Assembly: GCA_041447175.1 (NCBI GenBank)
Contig: CP166960.1
Location: forward strand, 2,434,519-2,498,518
From: Candidatus Bathyarchaeia archaeon
GTDB taxonomy: Archaea; Thermoproteota; Bathyarchaeia; Bathyarchaeales; Bathycorpusculaceae
Direction of reading: 5' to 3'
Length of the DNA stretch: 64,000 nucleotides
The position numbers and the translations under genes are program-made. The notes under the pieces were generated by a model. The model was not told the DNA's origin and did not search any database. It saw only the letters and a list, made by a program, of their open reading frames with translations. Positions 2,428 to 60,733 of this stretch are shown in pieces. Every line of letters starts with the position of its first letter. The stretch's first letter is position 1.

Positions 2428-3543
2428 ATGAACACAAAATATCTGGCTATATCCTTAGTAATTATCATTGTATGTGCTTCCGCAATAGGGTTGGTTTGTT
2501 ATTCTGGTAACAATTCGTCGTCACCTTCACCATCCCCATCACCCACTCTGTCTCCAACTTCCTCTTCCGTTCCAACAACAAAAACAATTGTTGATGCCGC
2601 GGGAAGAAGTGTGACAATTCCGTACACTGTAGACAGAGTGGCAATGAATAATCCTGTCATGCAAACTTTGATACTAGCACTGGGTGTTGAAGATAAAGTA
2701 GTTGAATGCAAAAGTGTATTGCCAAGTGCATGGTGGGAAAAAATACAGCCCTCGGTTGCAAACATACCTACCGCCTTTAACGGTAGCAGCCTTAACGTCG
2801 AACAACTATTGGCTTTGACTCCCGATGTCTACATCACACCTTACTCCGACACAAACATTGCTGCGGTCGAAGGTGTAGGAATACCTGTCGTAGAAATTGA
2901 CATAGACAACTGGGCGGGGCTGCAACAAAGCATGTTAATCTTGGGACAAGTTTTCGGAGACAGCGCAACAGCCAAAGCTGAACAATTCAACACCTACTTC
3001 GAGAATACAATAAACGAAATTAACTCAACAATATCCACGTCTTCTACGGGCACTTCTCCATCCGTAGCCTTTCTATTCTTCTACGTTCGAGATTCAGTAA
3101 TGAACATGATGGCTTTTGGCTCCGACACTCAGCAAGGTTCATGGATAATTGTAGACGGTGGCTCAAACGCAGTTGATTTTGAGGGTGCAAAGGCAATTAA
3201 CATGGAAACCGTCTTGAACTGGAACCCGGAAATAATCGTGTACACTGCCCCATCAGGAACGCCGATGAACTTAACAGTCATGCAAAATGATTCATTGTGG
3301 AGCCAAGTAAGTGCCGTTCAGAACAGCCAAGTTTACTTCTGTCCTGAAGGATTGTGGACGTGGTCAGGGACATCCGTAGAATCCGCCTTAATGGTTCAAT
3401 GGGGCGCAAAACTGCTGCATCCAGACTTATTCCCAGACCTCAACCTATCAGCTGAAACGATGTCTTTCTATGAAACATTCTATGGGTACTCCTTGACAGA
3501 AGTTGATGCCAACAACATTCTTTCCCATTCTTCCCCTTCTTAG
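2428..3543 (+). CDS. ABC importer substrate-binding protein (iron/cobalamin type)
   Basis: 371-residue extracytoplasmic solute-binding protein of the FepB/BtuF fold (peripla_BP_2). Residues 1-27 form a hydrophobic signal or anchor, followed by a Ser/Pro/Thr-rich linker (about 28-52) typical of archaeal tethered lipoproteins. The binding domain begins at TIVDAAGRSVTIPYTVDRVA and continues to the C-terminus. It is first in a same-strand set with a second binding protein, a FecCD-type permease and an ATPase. The substrate is not decidable from sequence: siderophore-iron, haem or corrinoid are all possible. Confidence 0.9.
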   Translation: MNTKYLAISLVIIIVCASAIGLVCYSGNNSSSPSPSPSPTLSPTSSSVPTTKTIVDAAGRSVTIPYTVDRVAMNNPVMQTLILALGVEDKVVECKSVLPSAWWEKIQPSVANIPTAFNGSSLNVEQLLALTPDVYITPYSDTNIAAVEGVGIPVVEIDIDNWAGLQQSMLILGQVFGDSATAKAEQFNTYFENTINEINSTISTSSTGTSPSVAFLFFYVRDSVMNMMAFGSDTQQGSWIIVDGGSNAVDFEGAKAINMETVLNWNPEIIVYTAPSGTPMNLTVMQNDSLWSQVSAVQNSQVYFCPEGLWTWSGTSVESALMVQWGAKLLHPDLFPDLNLSAETMSFYETFYGYSLTEVDANNILSHSSPS

Positions 3544-3552
3544 AGTGGTCAA

Positions 3553-4500
3553 ATGAAAAGTGAAAATTCAAGAAAAATAGTGGACATGAATGGGCGAGTC
3601 GTAGAAGTTCCTAAGAGCATAAAACGGGTTGCTGTTTCGCGCGCAGTTCACAATATGCTAATGCTGATTCTTGGCTCAGGGGACAAAATTGCCGCAACAG
3701 TGAAACACGCCCGTACACCCCTATCATTGAAAGTCTATCCCGCCCTCGCAAACAAACTATTTCCTTTTGAAAAAGGTAAAATTGACACCAACGCACTCAA
3801 ACATGCCCAAATTGACGCCGCAATAGTCTCCACAAATGACCATACAATTGAGCATTTGGAAGCCTTAGGTGTCCCCGTTTTGACTGTTTACCATAGAAAT
3901 CTTGAAGACCACATGCGAGTGGTCGAATTCTTTGGCAACGTGTTAGGCGAAGAAGAATCACAAAAAGCTGCCCAATATCGCACCTATTTAAGTAACAAAA
4001 TAGAAAAGATAACTTCCACCCTTTCCGTTATTCCCACAGAAAAGCGTCCGAAAGTTTTTTTCGCCAACTCATTTGACCCAATAATGACTATAGGAAATAA
4101 TCATCCTCTTAATGACTGGCTAGTGAAAGGAGGGGGAATAAACGTGGCTACAGGCTTTGACGATGCCAAATATGTCTCAATTGAACAGGTTCAGCAACTG
4201 GACCCAGACATAATTGTAATTCCTACTAATTTCAAGAATGTAATCCTTAACAACTCAGAATGGCAGAAGCTTAAGGCAGTGCGAAATAACAGGATACTTG
4301 TGGGGCCTTATGGATTGTATCCGTGGGTGGCGTGTGAACCGGAAATGGCTTTGCAGTTGCAGTGGTATGCCAAGCGGTTATATCCCGACAAATTTGAGGA
4401 CATTGATATCGAAGAAGAAACGCGGTTTTTTTATAAGACGTTCCTACGTTACAATTTATCTCCTGACGAGATCAATGAAATCCTAAATCCAGCAAACTAA
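3553..4500 (+). CDS. second solute-binding-protein homologue without signal peptide
   Basis: 315-residue protein of the same FepB/BtuF-like fold (KIVDMNGRVVEVPKSIKRVAV at residues 8-28). It starts directly in the binding domain, with no hydrophobic leader, lipobox or Ser/Pro linker. It begins 9 nt after the stop of the secreted paralogue, behind a plausible ribosome site (GTGGTC). As written it should stay in the cytoplasm. It may be a cytoplasmic metallophore or corrinoid carrier or sensor, or the true start may lie elsewhere, although no in-frame hydrophobic segment is available in the 9-nt gap. The fold is well supported, the role is not. Confidence 0.8.
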   Translation: MKSENSRKIVDMNGRVVEVPKSIKRVAVSRAVHNMLMLILGSGDKIAATVKHARTPLSLKVYPALANKLFPFEKGKIDTNALKHAQIDAAIVSTNDHTIEHLEALGVPVLTVYHRNLEDHMRVVEFFGNVLGEEESQKAAQYRTYLSNKIEKITSTLSVIPTEKRPKVFFANSFDPIMTIGNNHPLNDWLVKGGGINVATGFDDAKYVSIEQVQQLDPDIIVIPTNFKNVILNNSEWQKLKAVRNNRILVGPYGLYPWVACEPEMALQLQWYAKRLYPDKFEDIDIEEETRFFYKTFLRYNLSPDEINEILNPAN

Positions 4501-4519
4501 AAGAGGGAACAGTGTTGTT

Positions 4520-4559
4520 AAAAAAAGCGCCTAACAGGACGGGGGTTTGGCGTTTTTAA
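4520..4559 (+). terminator. hairpin between binding-protein genes and permease
   Basis: Arms AAAAAAGCGCC (4520-4531) and GGCGTTTTTAA (4549-4559) can pair around a G-rich loop with a small bulge, ending in a T run directly before the TTG start of the permease. It could attenuate transcription so that more binding protein than permease is made. The pairing is short. Confidence 0.35.
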
Positions 4560-5591
4560 TTGGCAACAAACAAACAAAACTTTCTGTCGTCCAGTAAGGC
4601 TAAACTGCTGGTTCTAATTGCTTGTCCACTTATTGTTTTCTTCGTATCTCTTTTTTTGGGTGTCTATCCAGTTTCTCCACAGGATGTTTTCCAAACCCTT
4701 TTTTCAGATATCTTTCGCACTGAAAACACTGTGCCTCTTGTAAACGTATACGTAATAAATCTTGTTAGGATACCGCGAGCCATCCTAGCCCTCACCATCG
4801 GAGCCGGTTTAGCTATTGCGGGGGCATCTAATCAGGGAATGCTTCAAAATCCCTTAGTCAGTCCCGACATACTAGGTGTGTCAGCAGCAGCAAGTTTTGG
4901 AGCAGTCCTCGTTATCCTCCTTGGAGGCAACACCGCTCTTTTACAGATTTCAGCATTTAGCTTTGGTTTACTAGCGGTAGGTTTGACGTACCTGCTCAGC
5001 CGAGTTTACAAAACAACTCCTCTGTTAATGCTTGTCCTCTCTGGTGTTGTGATTTCTGCTTTTTTCTCTGCATTAATCGGGATAATTGAATATGTAGCGC
5101 CTCCCAACACCAAACTTCAGCCCATTGTTTTTTGGTTGCTTGGGGGCCTCACGGGAACAACATGGGATACTCTTGTGCCTGCAGTTCCTTTAATGGTGGT
5201 TGGAATTGTTGGGCTTCTTTTAATCAGGTGGAGAATCAACCTGCTTGCTTTGGGTGACGATGAGGCGCGCTCATTGGGGGTGAGAACGGAACGTTTGAAG
5301 GGTATCATTATTATCTTCTCAACTATTACGGTTGCTGCAGCAGTAACTGTAAGTGGACTAATCGGCTGGGTTGGCTTAATCATTCCTCATATTGGTCGAA
5401 TGCTGGTTGGTTCAGATCACAAAGCGCTGCTTCCCGCTTGTGTATGTATTGGTTCGGCATATTTGCTAGTTATGGATGACCTCGCCCGCACTCTTACCTC
5501 AGGTGAGATTCCGCTGGGGATTCTTACAGCTTTGCTTGGTGCACCCTTCTTCTTAATCATTCTTCGTAAAACTAAGGGAGCTTTGAAGTGA
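4560..5591 (+). CDS. FecCD-family ABC transporter permease
   Basis: 343-residue integral membrane protein with about ten transmembrane segments. It shows the family signatures RIPRAILALTIGAGLAIAGA (first half), NPLVSPDILGVSAAASFGA, and the ATPase-coupling region GLIGWVGLIIPHIGRMLVG in the second half. It forms the membrane channel of an iron-siderophore/haem/cobalamin-type importer. The start is TTG at 4560. Its stop (TGA 5589-5591) abuts the ATPase start, so translation is coupled. Confidence 0.93.
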   Translation: MATNKQNFLSSSKAKLLVLIACPLIVFFVSLFLGVYPVSPQDVFQTLFSDIFRTENTVPLVNVYVINLVRIPRAILALTIGAGLAIAGASNQGMLQNPLVSPDILGVSAAASFGAVLVILLGGNTALLQISAFSFGLLAVGLTYLLSRVYKTTPLLMLVLSGVVISAFFSALIGIIEYVAPPNTKLQPIVFWLLGGLTGTTWDTLVPAVPLMVVGIVGLLLIRWRINLLALGDDEARSLGVRTERLKGIIIIFSTITVAAAVTVSGLIGWVGLIIPHIGRMLVGSDHKALLPACVCIGSAYLLVMDDLARTLTSGEIPLGILTALLGAPFFLIILRKTKGALK

Positions 5592-6401
5592 TTGGAACCT
5601 AAGCTACAAGTAAAAGATGCCGCTTTTAATTATGGTAAACGAACAATCTTTAGTGGTCTTAACTTAGACGTCCGTTCGGGAGAAGTTGTTTGTGTTCTCG
5701 GTCCCAACGGATGTGGAAAAACTACGCTGATGCGTTGCATGAATGGGCTTCTAAATCTAAACAAAGGGCATATTCTTTTAGACGGACAAAAACTTGATTC
5801 TATGCCCTCTGATAAGGTAGCAAAGGCAATTGGTTTTGTTTTTCAAGACCACAACCTCACGTTTCCTTTTTCTGTTTTGGAAGTTGTTCGCATGGGACGC
5901 GCCCCTCATTTGAGTTTTTTTGCTTCGCCATCCCAAGTTGATACCGAAATTGCAATAGACGCTTTAACGACAGTAGGGTTGCTGCATCTACAAGACAAAC
6001 CATACACTCAAATTAGCGGCGGAGAGCGCCAACTTGTTTTCATCGCTCGAGTTTTAGCGCAACAGCCTCAGGTTGTTTTGATGGATGAACCTACTTCGCA
6101 TCTGGACTTCAAAAATCAAGTCCTTGTTCTGAGGATGATTGACAAGTTGGCTGCACAGGGTCTGACAGTCGTAATGACTACGCATCTTCCTGACCAAGCA
6201 ATACTTTATTCAAGTAAGGTGGCTTTGATGAATAGCGGCAAATTCATTGCAACAGGAGAACCCTCTAAAGTTATGACGGAACAGAACATTGGAGAAGTCT
6301 ACGGGATGAAGGTGCGTATTTTGCAAGCTGAAGACCCCGTTACCGGCGAAGTGCTCAAGTTTGTGGTCCCAGCCCAAGAACGTTTCTCACTATCCAACTA
6401 A
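5592..6401 (+). CDS. ABC importer ATPase (FecE/BtuD type)
   Basis: 269-residue ATPase with Walker A GPNGCGKTT (near residue 38), Q-loop VFQDHNLTF, signature ISGGERQL, Walker B VVLMDEPTSHLD and an H-loop in TTHLPDQ. It powers the preceding permease. The start is TTG immediately after the permease stop. This is the last gene of the importer set; no regulator is adjacent. Confidence 0.95.
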   Translation: MEPKLQVKDAAFNYGKRTIFSGLNLDVRSGEVVCVLGPNGCGKTTLMRCMNGLLNLNKGHILLDGQKLDSMPSDKVAKAIGFVFQDHNLTFPFSVLEVVRMGRAPHLSFFASPSQVDTEIAIDALTTVGLLHLQDKPYTQISGGERQLVFIARVLAQQPQVVLMDEPTSHLDFKNQVLVLRMIDKLAAQGLTVVMTTHLPDQAILYSSKVALMNSGKFIATGEPSKVMTEQNIGEVYGMKVRILQAEDPVTGEVLKFVVPAQERFSLSN

Positions 6402-57342: not shown

Positions 57343-58041
57343 TCACTTGAAGTACTTGTTGTATCTATTTTCACAGAACTGCCGATAATCCCCATATTTT
57401 TGGAAATGAGCGTAGTCGATGCTCTTTGTTGTGTCTCTTAGGTTTTTGAAGTTGTCGTTGGTTTCAAGCTGTTGACCAACCATTTTTGACTGCGCGTGCG
57501 TTATTTCTGATATAACCGACGCGAAGTGTATCGCATAAATGGTGTCTTCTTCGATTTCCATGTCCTGTGGGGTGAAAACGTTGAATAGTTGTAGTTTGAA
57601 ACCTGAACCCGAGTATTCAGCATGAACCGAATCGTTTTCTTTTTTCAGTTTCACTGGAAGAAGCATGTGCCCCACAAACCACGATGCTGCATCAGTGATG
57701 GGTGTGCTTACTCCTTTTGGGCAGGCTGCCATCGTGTCGGCATTGAATTTCCAGTGAAAACCGCTACAAAAGTGCCTGATGACATCTTCTTTGTTTATTA
57801 TCATTTCATCCAAATCGGTTTTATAATAAAAACAACAGTCTCGCAGCCTTCGAAATGCTGTGTCTAGCTTTGCCCCGCCAGCAAGGTCAATCATTTTCTG
57901 AAAATTCAGCGAGGGGCGGCGTTGCTGAGATGCGAAGTAGTGTGTTATCTTTTCTTCAGCTTCTTTGGTGATTGGGCATTGACAGCTGAGAAGTATTCGT
58001 AGTAATGCTTTGGCTGCTTCGGTTTCAATTTCTAAGGTCAA
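57343..58041 (-). CDS. unknown cysteine-containing protein, divergent from ECF-like gene
   Basis: 232 residues from TTG 58041 (MTLEIETEAAKALLRILLSCQ); GGAGG lies 12 nt upstream. A longer frame to 58284 would run through the operator and over the divergent gene, so I reject it. The protein has helical N-terminal parts with Cys-x-Cys and Cys-Cys pairs (SCQCPIT, RDCCFYY) and a later beta-rich part (AEYSGSGFKLQLFNVF). I recognise no family. Its divergent position over a palindrome makes it a candidate regulator of the hydrogenase locus. Confidence 0.6.
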   Translation of the reverse strand: MTLEIETEAAKALLRILLSCQCPITKEAEEKITHYFASQQRRPSLNFQKMIDLAGGAKLDTAFRRLRDCCFYYKTDLDEMIINKEDVIRHFCSGFHWKFNADTMAACPKGVSTPITDAASWFVGHMLLPVKLKKENDSVHAEYSGSGFKLQLFNVFTPQDMEIEEDTIYAIHFASVISEITHAQSKMVGQQLETNDNFKNLRDTTKSIDYAHFQKYGDYRQFCENRYNKYFK

Positions 58042-58088: not shown

Positions 58089-58116
58089 GTGTTACTTTTT
58101 TTAAAAAAAGTAACAC
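58089..58116. promoter_or_regulatory. perfect 28-bp palindrome, candidate operator O1
   Basis: Arms GTGTTAC and GTAACAC enclose a T7-A7 core, 14+14 bases without mismatch. It lies between the divergent starts at 58041 and 58133, next to TATA-like CATATATAGG. The same motif recurs at 58863-58890. Confidence 0.7.
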
Positions 58117-58132: not shown

Positions 58133-58765
58133 ATGACAAACAACGTTAAAGAACAATTCCATCTCAAACCCTTTGACTTAGCGCTAACTGCAATTATGGC
58201 AGCAACCAACTTTGTAATCTGTGCAACCGTTGCCCCTGCACTAAAAGTTGTAATACCCCAAGTCTTTCTTGGAGCATTAATCATGGTTCCTTTGGACCTC
58301 TTTTTCGCCTACACTACGTGGGCAATCACGCGCAAGAACATTTTCGTCCTGTACTTTCTCATCTTCGGCTTGCTCACTGTACCCACCACAATCTGGGGCA
58401 ACACCCCCGGTATATTCAAACCCTTTCTCGGTTTAGCCATTGGATTATTACTGGACTTGCTGATAATGCGGCTAAACCCCCAAACTAGGCTGGCAAAGGT
58501 TACCCTGGCGGTCGTGTTTCCCTGCATTTTTTGGAGTTTAACCGCCATCGTTTGGTCGATTGCGGGGTTGCCCATCGTGCAGATTTTTCAAACTATGGTC
58601 ACAAGTGCGCCCTTTCTTAATTCAATCGTGCCAGCAGGGTTCATTTCAACCTTTTTGACTCTGGCTTTGTTAACTATGCCTTCTTCTTTTGTTGCAATTA
58701 CGGCAGCCGTTTCTACATCAAAAAGAGTTGAAAAGATTGTTCCCGTATCCACAAAACAGAGTTAG
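58133..58765 (+). CDS. six-helix membrane protein, ECF S-component-like
   Basis: 210 residues with about six hydrophobic segments. The beginning FDLALTAIMAATNFVICA and the central PGIFKPFLGLAIGLLLDLLI resemble substrate-binding S components of ECF vitamin/metal transporters, though no exact type is clear. ATG 58133 is 16 nt after the O1 palindrome. The operator pattern it shares with the hydrogenase gene suggests joint control. Confidence 0.65.
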   Translation: MTNNVKEQFHLKPFDLALTAIMAATNFVICATVAPALKVVIPQVFLGALIMVPLDLFFAYTTWAITRKNIFVLYFLIFGLLTVPTTIWGNTPGIFKPFLGLAIGLLLDLLIMRLNPQTRLAKVTLAVVFPCIFWSLTAIVWSIAGLPIVQIFQTMVTSAPFLNSIVPAGFISTFLTLALLTMPSSFVAITAAVSTSKRVEKIVPVSTKQS

Positions 58766-58862: not shown

Positions 58863-58890
58863 GTGCTACTAATTTTAAAAATAGTAACAC
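58863..58890. promoter_or_regulatory. 28-bp palindrome, candidate operator O2
   Basis: Arms GTGCTAC and GTAACAC with an A/T core; 12 of 14 half-site positions are complementary. Most of it matches O1. It ends one base before the ATG at 58892, so a bound protein would block leaderless initiation or early elongation. Confidence 0.65.
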
Positions 58891-58891
58891 C

Positions 58892-60733
58892 ATGGCGAGT
58901 GAGTGCATGCAGGTAACTATCAACAAAAAAATAGTTCAAGTATCTAGTAACCTTTCAATCTTTGAAGCCATTCAATCTGCAAACGAAACTGTTTTAACGC
59001 CGCAGTTGGGCGACGCAAAAGACTGGATACCTAACAAGTCCTGCCCTTTGCTTGGACTTGCTGAAGTCGATGGGCAACTTGTTTCTTTATCTGCCCTGAA
59101 GAAACGTACCGCTCAGGACGGAATGTCAATCAATACCAATACGCCGCTAATCCAGCAGGAACTTGCAGGTCGGGCAGATTTACTTACTGACCAGCATGAA
59201 TGCTTTTTCATGCGGGAATGGCAAAAAAAGATAGCCGTTGAAGGCATCAACGCTGGGTTAATCACTCAAGAAGAGTATGACGGTTTTTCTTTCTCGACGC
59301 GAGGCGCTACCCCCTCGATTGTTCATGACCCCAATCGATGCATCCGTTGTAAATCCTGCGTGCAAACCTGCAGGCTACAAGGTGTAGAAGCGTTAACATT
59401 TGATGAAGAAAAAGGCGTAATAGTCGACGAAGAACGTTGCGTTAGATGCGGACAATGCATCCTTCACTGCCCCATGGGCGCATTAGCCACCAGAAACGTA
59501 CTGGCTGACTTCTTACAATGCGAAAACTGCGCCTTCACTGAACCACTAAGTGCCATGCGCGAGTCCGATGACACCTTTGAAGCGTGGACCCTGCTGAAAA
59601 ATCCCCAAACCTTCTGTGTTGCACAATTTGCACCCGCCATCCGCGCTTCTCTCGGGGAAGAGTTTGATTTTCCTCCAGGAGAATTGGTTACTGGAAAAAT
59701 TTATGCGGCTCTTCGCCGATTAGGTTTCAAAAAAATCTGGGATACAAACTTCGCTGCAGATTTAACCATCATGGAGGAAGGCAGCGAATTCATTGACCGT
59801 TTAACCAACGGAGGCGTCCTGCCGCTTTTCACCTCTTGTTGTCCAGCGTGGATTCGGTTTGCCGAAAGATTCTATCCAGAATTATTGCCTCATTTGTCTA
59901 CTGCAAAAAGCCCACAGCAGATGTTTGGCGCGGTAGCTAAATCATTTGGCGCAAAAACACTGGGCGTCAATCCCCAAGACATGAGGGTAGTTTCCATTAT
60001 GCCCTGCACTTCAAAGAAGACTGAAGCAAAGCGCCAAGAAATGACTGACGCCTCAGGGTATTGGAACGAGCACGGGGAACAAAGCGTTGAAGAAACATTC
60101 CAAGATGTCGATTTGGTGCTTACGGCAAGAGAATTGGCGCGTCTCCTCAAGATAGCGGGAATTGATTTGCGTCAGATGCCTGAAGAAAACGCTGATTCCC
60201 TTTTGGGTAGCTACACCGGTGCCGCTCCAATCTTTGGCAGAACCGGCGGCGTTATGGAAGCAGCACTTAGAACCGCCCTTACTTTGCTTACCGGAAAAAC
60301 CCCCGCTGCTCTTGAGTTTGATGATTTAGCCACCATGGATGGGATAAAGCGCGGTGAACTTTCGGTCGGCGGCAAAGTTGTGAAAGTTGCGGTTGCTCAT
60401 GGTCTGGAGAATGTGCGCAAAGTTTGTGAATCAGTTCTTTCGGGCGGAGAGTTCTCGAAGTATCACTTTATTGAGTTCATGGCGTGTCCTGGGGGATGCA
60501 TCGGCGGCGGAGGGCAACCGTTACCCACAAATGTATGCACCCGAAAAGCGCGTACAGCTGGATTGAACCGCGATGACAGAGAAGTGTGCGAGTTGCGGAT
60601 GAGCCATGAGAACCCCGAGATTAAAGCGTTATATCAGACATTTCTAAGAAAGCCTCTCAGCCACACTGCACATCATCTGCTGCACACAAGTTACTCTGCG
60701 GTCAAACTAGCACCAAAGACAAATAACAGTTAA
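58892..60733 (+). CDS. hydA: [FeFe]-hydrogenase, monomeric group A type
   Basis: 613 residues. H-cluster motifs are complete: TSCCPAW (C316, C317), MPCTSKKTEAKR (C372), MACPGGCIGGGGQP (C532, C536). Two [4Fe-4S] ferredoxin motifs are present (C150/153/156/160 and C183/186/189/193). The C-terminal SHENP ... AHHLLHTSY tail is typical of HydA. In the N-terminal region the [2Fe-2S] ligands are mostly missing (only C51) and the His-Cys cluster has only H102/C104 of its usual four. It reversibly reduces protons with ferredoxin-type electrons. No hydE, hydF or hydG maturase is in the window. Confidence 0.95.
   Translation: MASECMQVTINKKIVQVSSNLSIFEAIQSANETVLTPQLGDAKDWIPNKSCPLLGLAEVDGQLVSLSALKKRTAQDGMSINTNTPLIQQELAGRADLLTDQHECFFMREWQKKIAVEGINAGLITQEEYDGFSFSTRGATPSIVHDPNRCIRCKSCVQTCRLQGVEALTFDEEKGVIVDEERCVRCGQCILHCPMGALATRNVLADFLQCENCAFTEPLSAMRESDDTFEAWTLLKNPQTFCVAQFAPAIRASLGEEFDFPPGELVTGKIYAALRRLGFKKIWDTNFAADLTIMEEGSEFIDRLTNGGVLPLFTSCCPAWIRFAERFYPELLPHLSTAKSPQQMFGAVAKSFGAKTLGVNPQDMRVVSIMPCTSKKTEAKRQEMTDASGYWNEHGEQSVEETFQDVDLVLTARELARLLKIAGIDLRQMPEENADSLLGSYTGAAPIFGRTGGVMEAALRTALTLLTGKTPAALEFDDLATMDGIKRGELSVGGKVVKVAVAHGLENVRKVCESVLSGGEFSKYHFIEFMACPGGCIGGGGQPLPTNVCTRKARTAGLNRDDREVCELRMSHENPEIKALYQTFLRKPLSHTAHHLLHTSYSAVKLAPKTNNS

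Follow-up and report, generated by a model that had tools for sequence, protein, structure and literature searches.

A bacterial-type [FeFe]-hydrogenase gene with all its catalytic motifs stands in a Bathyarchaeia genome in which the maturases HydE, HydF, and HydG go undetected, and the locus thereby raises the question of what the protein does and when the cell would call on it. The answer argued here, to which we give somewhat better than even chances, is that a group A [FeFe]-hydrogenase now has its home in a Bathyarchaeia genus, where it belongs to a nickel-starvation cassette under NikR control.

The hydA gene and its place in the genus

The open reading frame at 58892-60733 (+ strand) of the window, meaning the whole 64-kb stretch of DNA analysed, encodes 613 aa and is identified by domain and profile searches as a group A [FeFe]-hydrogenase (HydA). 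Its first ATG sits 1 bp beyond a NikR-type site; translation probably begins at the second in-frame ATG, position 58907 (MQVTINKK...), because in L005, the 78%-identical protein of another species of the genus, the first start codon falls at this position and an earlier start is not possible. Domain searches place a two-cluster ferredoxin domain with two 4Fe-4S motifs at residues 146-200 (59327-59491, + strand), the H-cluster domain Fe_hyd_lg_C (PF02906, E=5e-90) at residues 242-540 (59615-60511, + strand), and a fused small-subunit domain, Fe_hyd_SSU (PF02256, 2e-21), at residues 551-603 of the C-terminal end (60542-60700, + strand). Moreover, HydA passes the NCBIfam model FeFe_hydrog_A (TIGR02512) with 469.5 bits against a cut-off of 405.95, and profile searches with the group A6, Clostridial, and group B hydrogenase models do not reach their cut-offs. 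The alignment contains all three group A H-cluster motifs (TSCCPxW, MPCxxKK, ExMxCxxGCxxGGGQP), here complete as TSCCPAW (C316, C317), MPCTSKK (C372), and EFMACPGGCIGGGGQP (C532, C536), and both ferredoxin [4Fe-4S] motifs are complete as well (C150/153/156/160 and C183/186/189/193). Motifs, domain search, and profile thus bear out the initial annotation, which had read the H-cluster motifs and two ferredoxin clusters as intact.

The window is part of a single-contig genome of 2,733,033 bp (G000), 97% complete, in which a search for a terminal overlap of the contig found none. A search of 257 genomes of the class yields matches to the H-domain family in five, namely G000, G129, G130, G252, and, weakly, G084. 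G129 belongs to the same genus, is 96% complete, and carries L005 on a 446,878-bp contig, within the same block of three genes (an unknown protein, a membrane protein, and hydA) and in otherwise non-syntenic surroundings. G130, also of the genus, keeps only a 3' remnant (L017 / L068, G130:C2, about 235 kb) that spans about codons 398-613 and lies at the window's locus with the same downstream genes, a metal ABC transporter standing where the 5' part of hydA would be. Since one member retains only this remnant and four others have no copy, hydA is dispensable in the genus; as read from these genomes, it is a gene of the genus that one member has in truncated form and others lack. As a separate observation, contig G252:C34 encodes a different HydA (L015), 40% identical, in another Bathyarchaeia family, and no HydG is found in that genome, which is 82% complete with the gene on a short contig.

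The remnant could also be taken to mean that hydA is a non-functional transferred gene in decay, acquired from bacteria without its maturases or after losing them. This is improbable: the reading frame and all ligands are intact in two species that are separated by a dS of about 1.6, dN/dS between them is about 0.09, and the operators are conserved in both. The transporters of the genus give a dN/dS of about 0.08-0.11, and these values indicate that the archaeal hydA is under purifying selection and evolves like other orthologues of the genus. Contamination or a chimeric assembly was considered as well and is ruled out by the single 2.73-Mb contig, by the recurrence of the cassette in another species, and by operators of the kind found in the regulon of the genus. 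The hydrogenase, which had been described as sitting amid archaeal genes, is hence native to the archaeal genome and kept by another species of the same genus. [FeFe]-hydrogenases of archaea were reported by Greening et al. (2024, Cell), as cited in PMC11406978, and the likeness to that survey is the occurrence of such an enzyme in archaea.

Relatives of HydA and its altered N-terminal relay

In a tree built on the H-domain alone, the window HydA and L005 form a clade (100/99) with one protein from Zixibacteria (L006, 63% identical to the window HydA) and one from Pirellulales (L007, 55%), and the two archaeal proteins are sisters (91/86). The initial annotation had named a position inside one bacterial genus, together with a break in composition, as what would speak against it; the gene instead lies closest to an archaeal sequence and then to single MAGs of two bacterial phyla, and its GC3 falls short of the window mean by only about 1.2 sd. 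Additional HydA homologues were sought among viral contigs, and none was found. The two bacteria share the altered N-terminus and the insert described below with the archaeal proteins, but they differ from them in encoding HydE, HydF, and HydG, for which the archaeal genomes G000 and G129 have no detectable counterparts, and in the first H-cluster motif, TSCSPGW in both bacteria versus TSCCPAW in both archaeal HydA. Specifically, the Pirellulales genes are arranged as an operon, hydE-hydG-(aspartase-like)-hydF-hydA, in which the aspartase-like gene (L007 2800-4581) was identified by eye.

The best solved relatives by sequence and fold matches are HydA1 of the bifurcating HydABC hydrogenases (Thermoanaerobacter kivui, 8a6t; Acetobacterium woodii, 7q4v) and Clostridium pasteurianum hydrogenase I (CpI), which resemble HydA in the H-domain, the two ferredoxin clusters, and the overall N-terminal fold. 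Unlike them, the archaeal HydA has lost the ligand sets of the N-terminal [2Fe-2S] and His-Cys3 clusters, carries a CxxC insert, and has no adjoining HydB or HydC; the hydB and hydC partners of the bifurcating complex were looked for beside hydA, where the neighbours are unrelated. In an alignment of 23 HydA proteins, the relatives of standard layout have a CxxC-containing [2Fe-2S] site and an HxxxCxxCxxxxxC site, whereas the corresponding region of the window HydA (58907-59326, + strand) is degenerate, with 2Fe-2S-like and His-Cys3-like stretches in which only the invariant C51 (59042-59044) and C104 (59201-59203) are kept. With respect to the CpI-type (M3) relay, therefore, the Cys4 [2Fe-2S] and His-Cys3 sites are missing and the two ferredoxin [4Fe-4S] sites are present. 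Conversely, after the ferredoxin domain, a 24-residue insert (about residues 197-220; 59480-59551, + strand) with a CxxC formed by C210 and C213 occurs in the window HydA, L005, L006, and L007 and not in the relatives of standard layout.

The four proteins of the clade accordingly have four extra invariant cysteines outside the known sites (C51, C104, C210, C213), and this N-terminal trait is independent evidence for the clade, because the tree used the H-domain only. In principle, these four residues would be enough for one putative replacement cluster. Since the whole clade, bacteria included, has the added CxxC insert, the front end of HydA looks rebuilt and not merely stripped. The earlier description of a stripped or shortened relay hence stands for the loss of the [2Fe-2S] and His-Cys3 ligands, and it left unmentioned the clade-wide CxxC insert that was added. 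It had also proposed a structure prediction of residues 1-145; the AlphaFold2 model of HydA has too low a confidence at residues 101-105, 132-201, and 212-223, i.e., around the candidate ligands.

NikR-type operators and the three-gene cassette

Two palindromes probably connect hydA with nickel. A NikR-type operator with one mismatch, GTGCTAC-N14-GTAACAC, lies upstream of hydA at 58863-58890 (+ strand), and a pattern search finds a perfect one, GTGTTAC-N14-GTAACAC, at 58089-58116 between the divergent companion genes of the cassette. Both 28-bp palindromes recur at the L005 locus. They are the only sites with up to two mismatches in the window, both at promoters of the hydA cassette, and 60 simulated windows contain no match with up to one mismatch. 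Across whole genomes, the counts at two mismatches are about those of control patterns and close to background, so that the argument draws only on paired sites and on those with zero or one mismatch. The palindromes have the form of the NikR consensus, GTGTTAC-[N13/14]-GTAACAC, which was derived in delta-proteobacteria (PMC545781). The initial annotation mentioned neither the operator, which is the best clue to physiology, nor the three-gene cassette.

The same palindrome precedes metal transporters of the FecCD/BtuF type in the window genome and in other species of the genus, which suggests that nickel uptake in the genus may proceed via siderophore-type transporters. It also precedes a P-loop ATPase, resembling CooC by eye, in G000 and other species of the genus, and the palindromes of the genus are often tandem pairs about 37 bp apart (L087, L088, L089, L091-L099). 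Some of the binding proteins associated with FecCD/BtuF behind the palindromes carry a dockerin-like domain. By eye, positions 2428-6398 of the window look like another ABC transporter operon for metal or cobalamin, and this one has no NikR-type site. NikR itself is encoded in seven of the seven genomes of the genus tested, and its better copy (L104) passes the NCBIfam NikR cut-offs and has the H/HxH/C nickel-ligand pattern. A NikR-like palindrome is also found upstream of the Pirellulales hydA, where its occurrence by chance is about 2 in 5000. Altogether, the operators and the regulator make NikR control of the hydA cassette likely.

The cassette consists of an unknown protein, a membrane protein, and hydA, in an order that is kept in the second species. 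The membrane protein (58133-58765, + strand; 210 aa from ATG) and the divergent companion (57343-58041, - strand; 232 aa, TTG start, conserved Cys/His) have no family match, and their counterparts beside hydA in G129 are 63% and 52% identical, respectively; the structure prediction of the latter companion has a mean pLDDT of 41. The two divergent genes are possible candidates for new nickel-starvation or maturation proteins.

In the presence of nickel, NikR-Ni would bind both palindromes and repress hydA and the two companion genes; conversely, under nickel scarcity, the cassette would be expressed and a nickel-free hydrogenase would take the place of presumed [NiFe] enzymes. HydA would then exchange electrons with ferredoxin by way of its two ferredoxin clusters and of a modified entry at the N-terminus, where the lost [2Fe-2S] and His-Cys3 clusters may have been replaced by nothing or by one cluster on C51, C104, C210, and C213. 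The same consensus precedes hydAB, the Fe-only hydrogenase of Desulfovibrio desulfuricans, for which nickel repression was proposed (PMC545781). That predicted case shares both the operator and the logic of a nickel-repressed, nickel-free hydrogenase, but the Desulfovibrio enzyme is bacterial, periplasmic, and of two subunits, whereas the window hydA is archaeal and has two extra co-regulated genes. In Methanothermobacter, Hmd is a nickel-free hydrogenase that replaces [NiFe] enzymes when nickel is limiting (PMC12350162); the likeness lies in the use of a nickel-free hydrogenase under nickel limitation, while enzyme and cofactor are unrelated.

Undetected maturases and the role of HydA

The profile searches give no HydG match at all in G000, G129, G130, and G252, and for HydE and HydF their matches stay far under the cut-off and consist of generic radical-SAM proteins and GTPases. 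Within the reach of the profiles, two candidates for distant maturases in G000 were rejected: the one that scores best for HydF is HflX, and the one that scores best for HydE is a radical SAM protein of the BioB/HmdB kind that is not found in G129. A radical SAM protein of this type, falling between BioB, HmdB, and HydE and under all cut-offs (L002, G000:C1:2601215, and L045), occurs in G000 and G130 and is not found in G129. The initial annotation had held that the enzyme should be active, which does not follow, since no HydE, HydF, or HydG is detected in the genome; it had also counted a total absence of maturases from a complete genome against its proposal, and the three go undetected in both the 97%-complete genome and its 96%-complete relative. 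We know of no bacterial [FeFe]-hydrogenase that gains its activity in vivo without HydE, HydF, and HydG; a genome with an active group A enzyme is expected to encode all three, although they do not enter into the definition of the group by sequence. Because HydEFG are absent from the searches and yet hydA is under selection, competing readings arise, in which the H-cluster is made by another route, the protein functions without it, or the maturases were missed.

The maturases might be encoded in the unassembled few percent of the genomes or be too diverged for the HydE, HydF, and HydG models, as completeness is below 100% in both cases and no terminal overlap of the contig was found. This, too, is improbable: three genes each would have to escape in two independent genomes, the nearest HydF and HydE matches are the proteins named above, and HydG has no match whatever, although in the same search related radical-SAM proteins match in 7 of 14 control genomes. 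A protein that is kept but never receives the full H-cluster deserves more weight and is still unlikely; it would hold only [4Fe-4S] clusters and act in electron transfer, as a sensor, or in metal handling in the nickel-starvation response, like maturase-free relatives of HydA. Such a protein would agree with the undetected HydEFG in G000 and G129, with the dispensability of hydA in the genus, and with the case of Entamoeba histolytica, which has neither HydA nor the maturases while all Archamoebae retain a group B hydrogenase homologue (PMC10711303). However, a [4Fe-4S]-only protein would be expected to relax at the residues specific to the diiron site, and HydA has retained them, both in TSCCP and MPCxxKK and at the invariant E/S/K positions nearby.

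Given these considerations, the most likely role of HydA is that of a nickel-starvation hydrogenase, and the chance that it carries out H2 chemistry in vivo is, to judge from its sequence, about even. The more specific proposal that the archaeal HydA is active in vivo without HydEFG, receives its diiron site via another pathway, possibly with the co-regulated unknown protein of the cassette, and serves as a NikR-controlled nickel-free replacement is tentative and, taken as a whole, rather doubtful.

In any case, the NikR operators name nickel starvation as the condition under which HydA is to be studied. If the enzyme is active, it would be an instance of [FeFe]-hydrogenase maturation without HydEFG, or a pointer to a new assembly route, and its front end would represent a naturally rewired hydrogenase relay that is common to two domains of life. 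Moreover, a bacterial-type [FeFe] enzyme would then join the means by which archaea sustain hydrogen metabolism under nickel scarcity.
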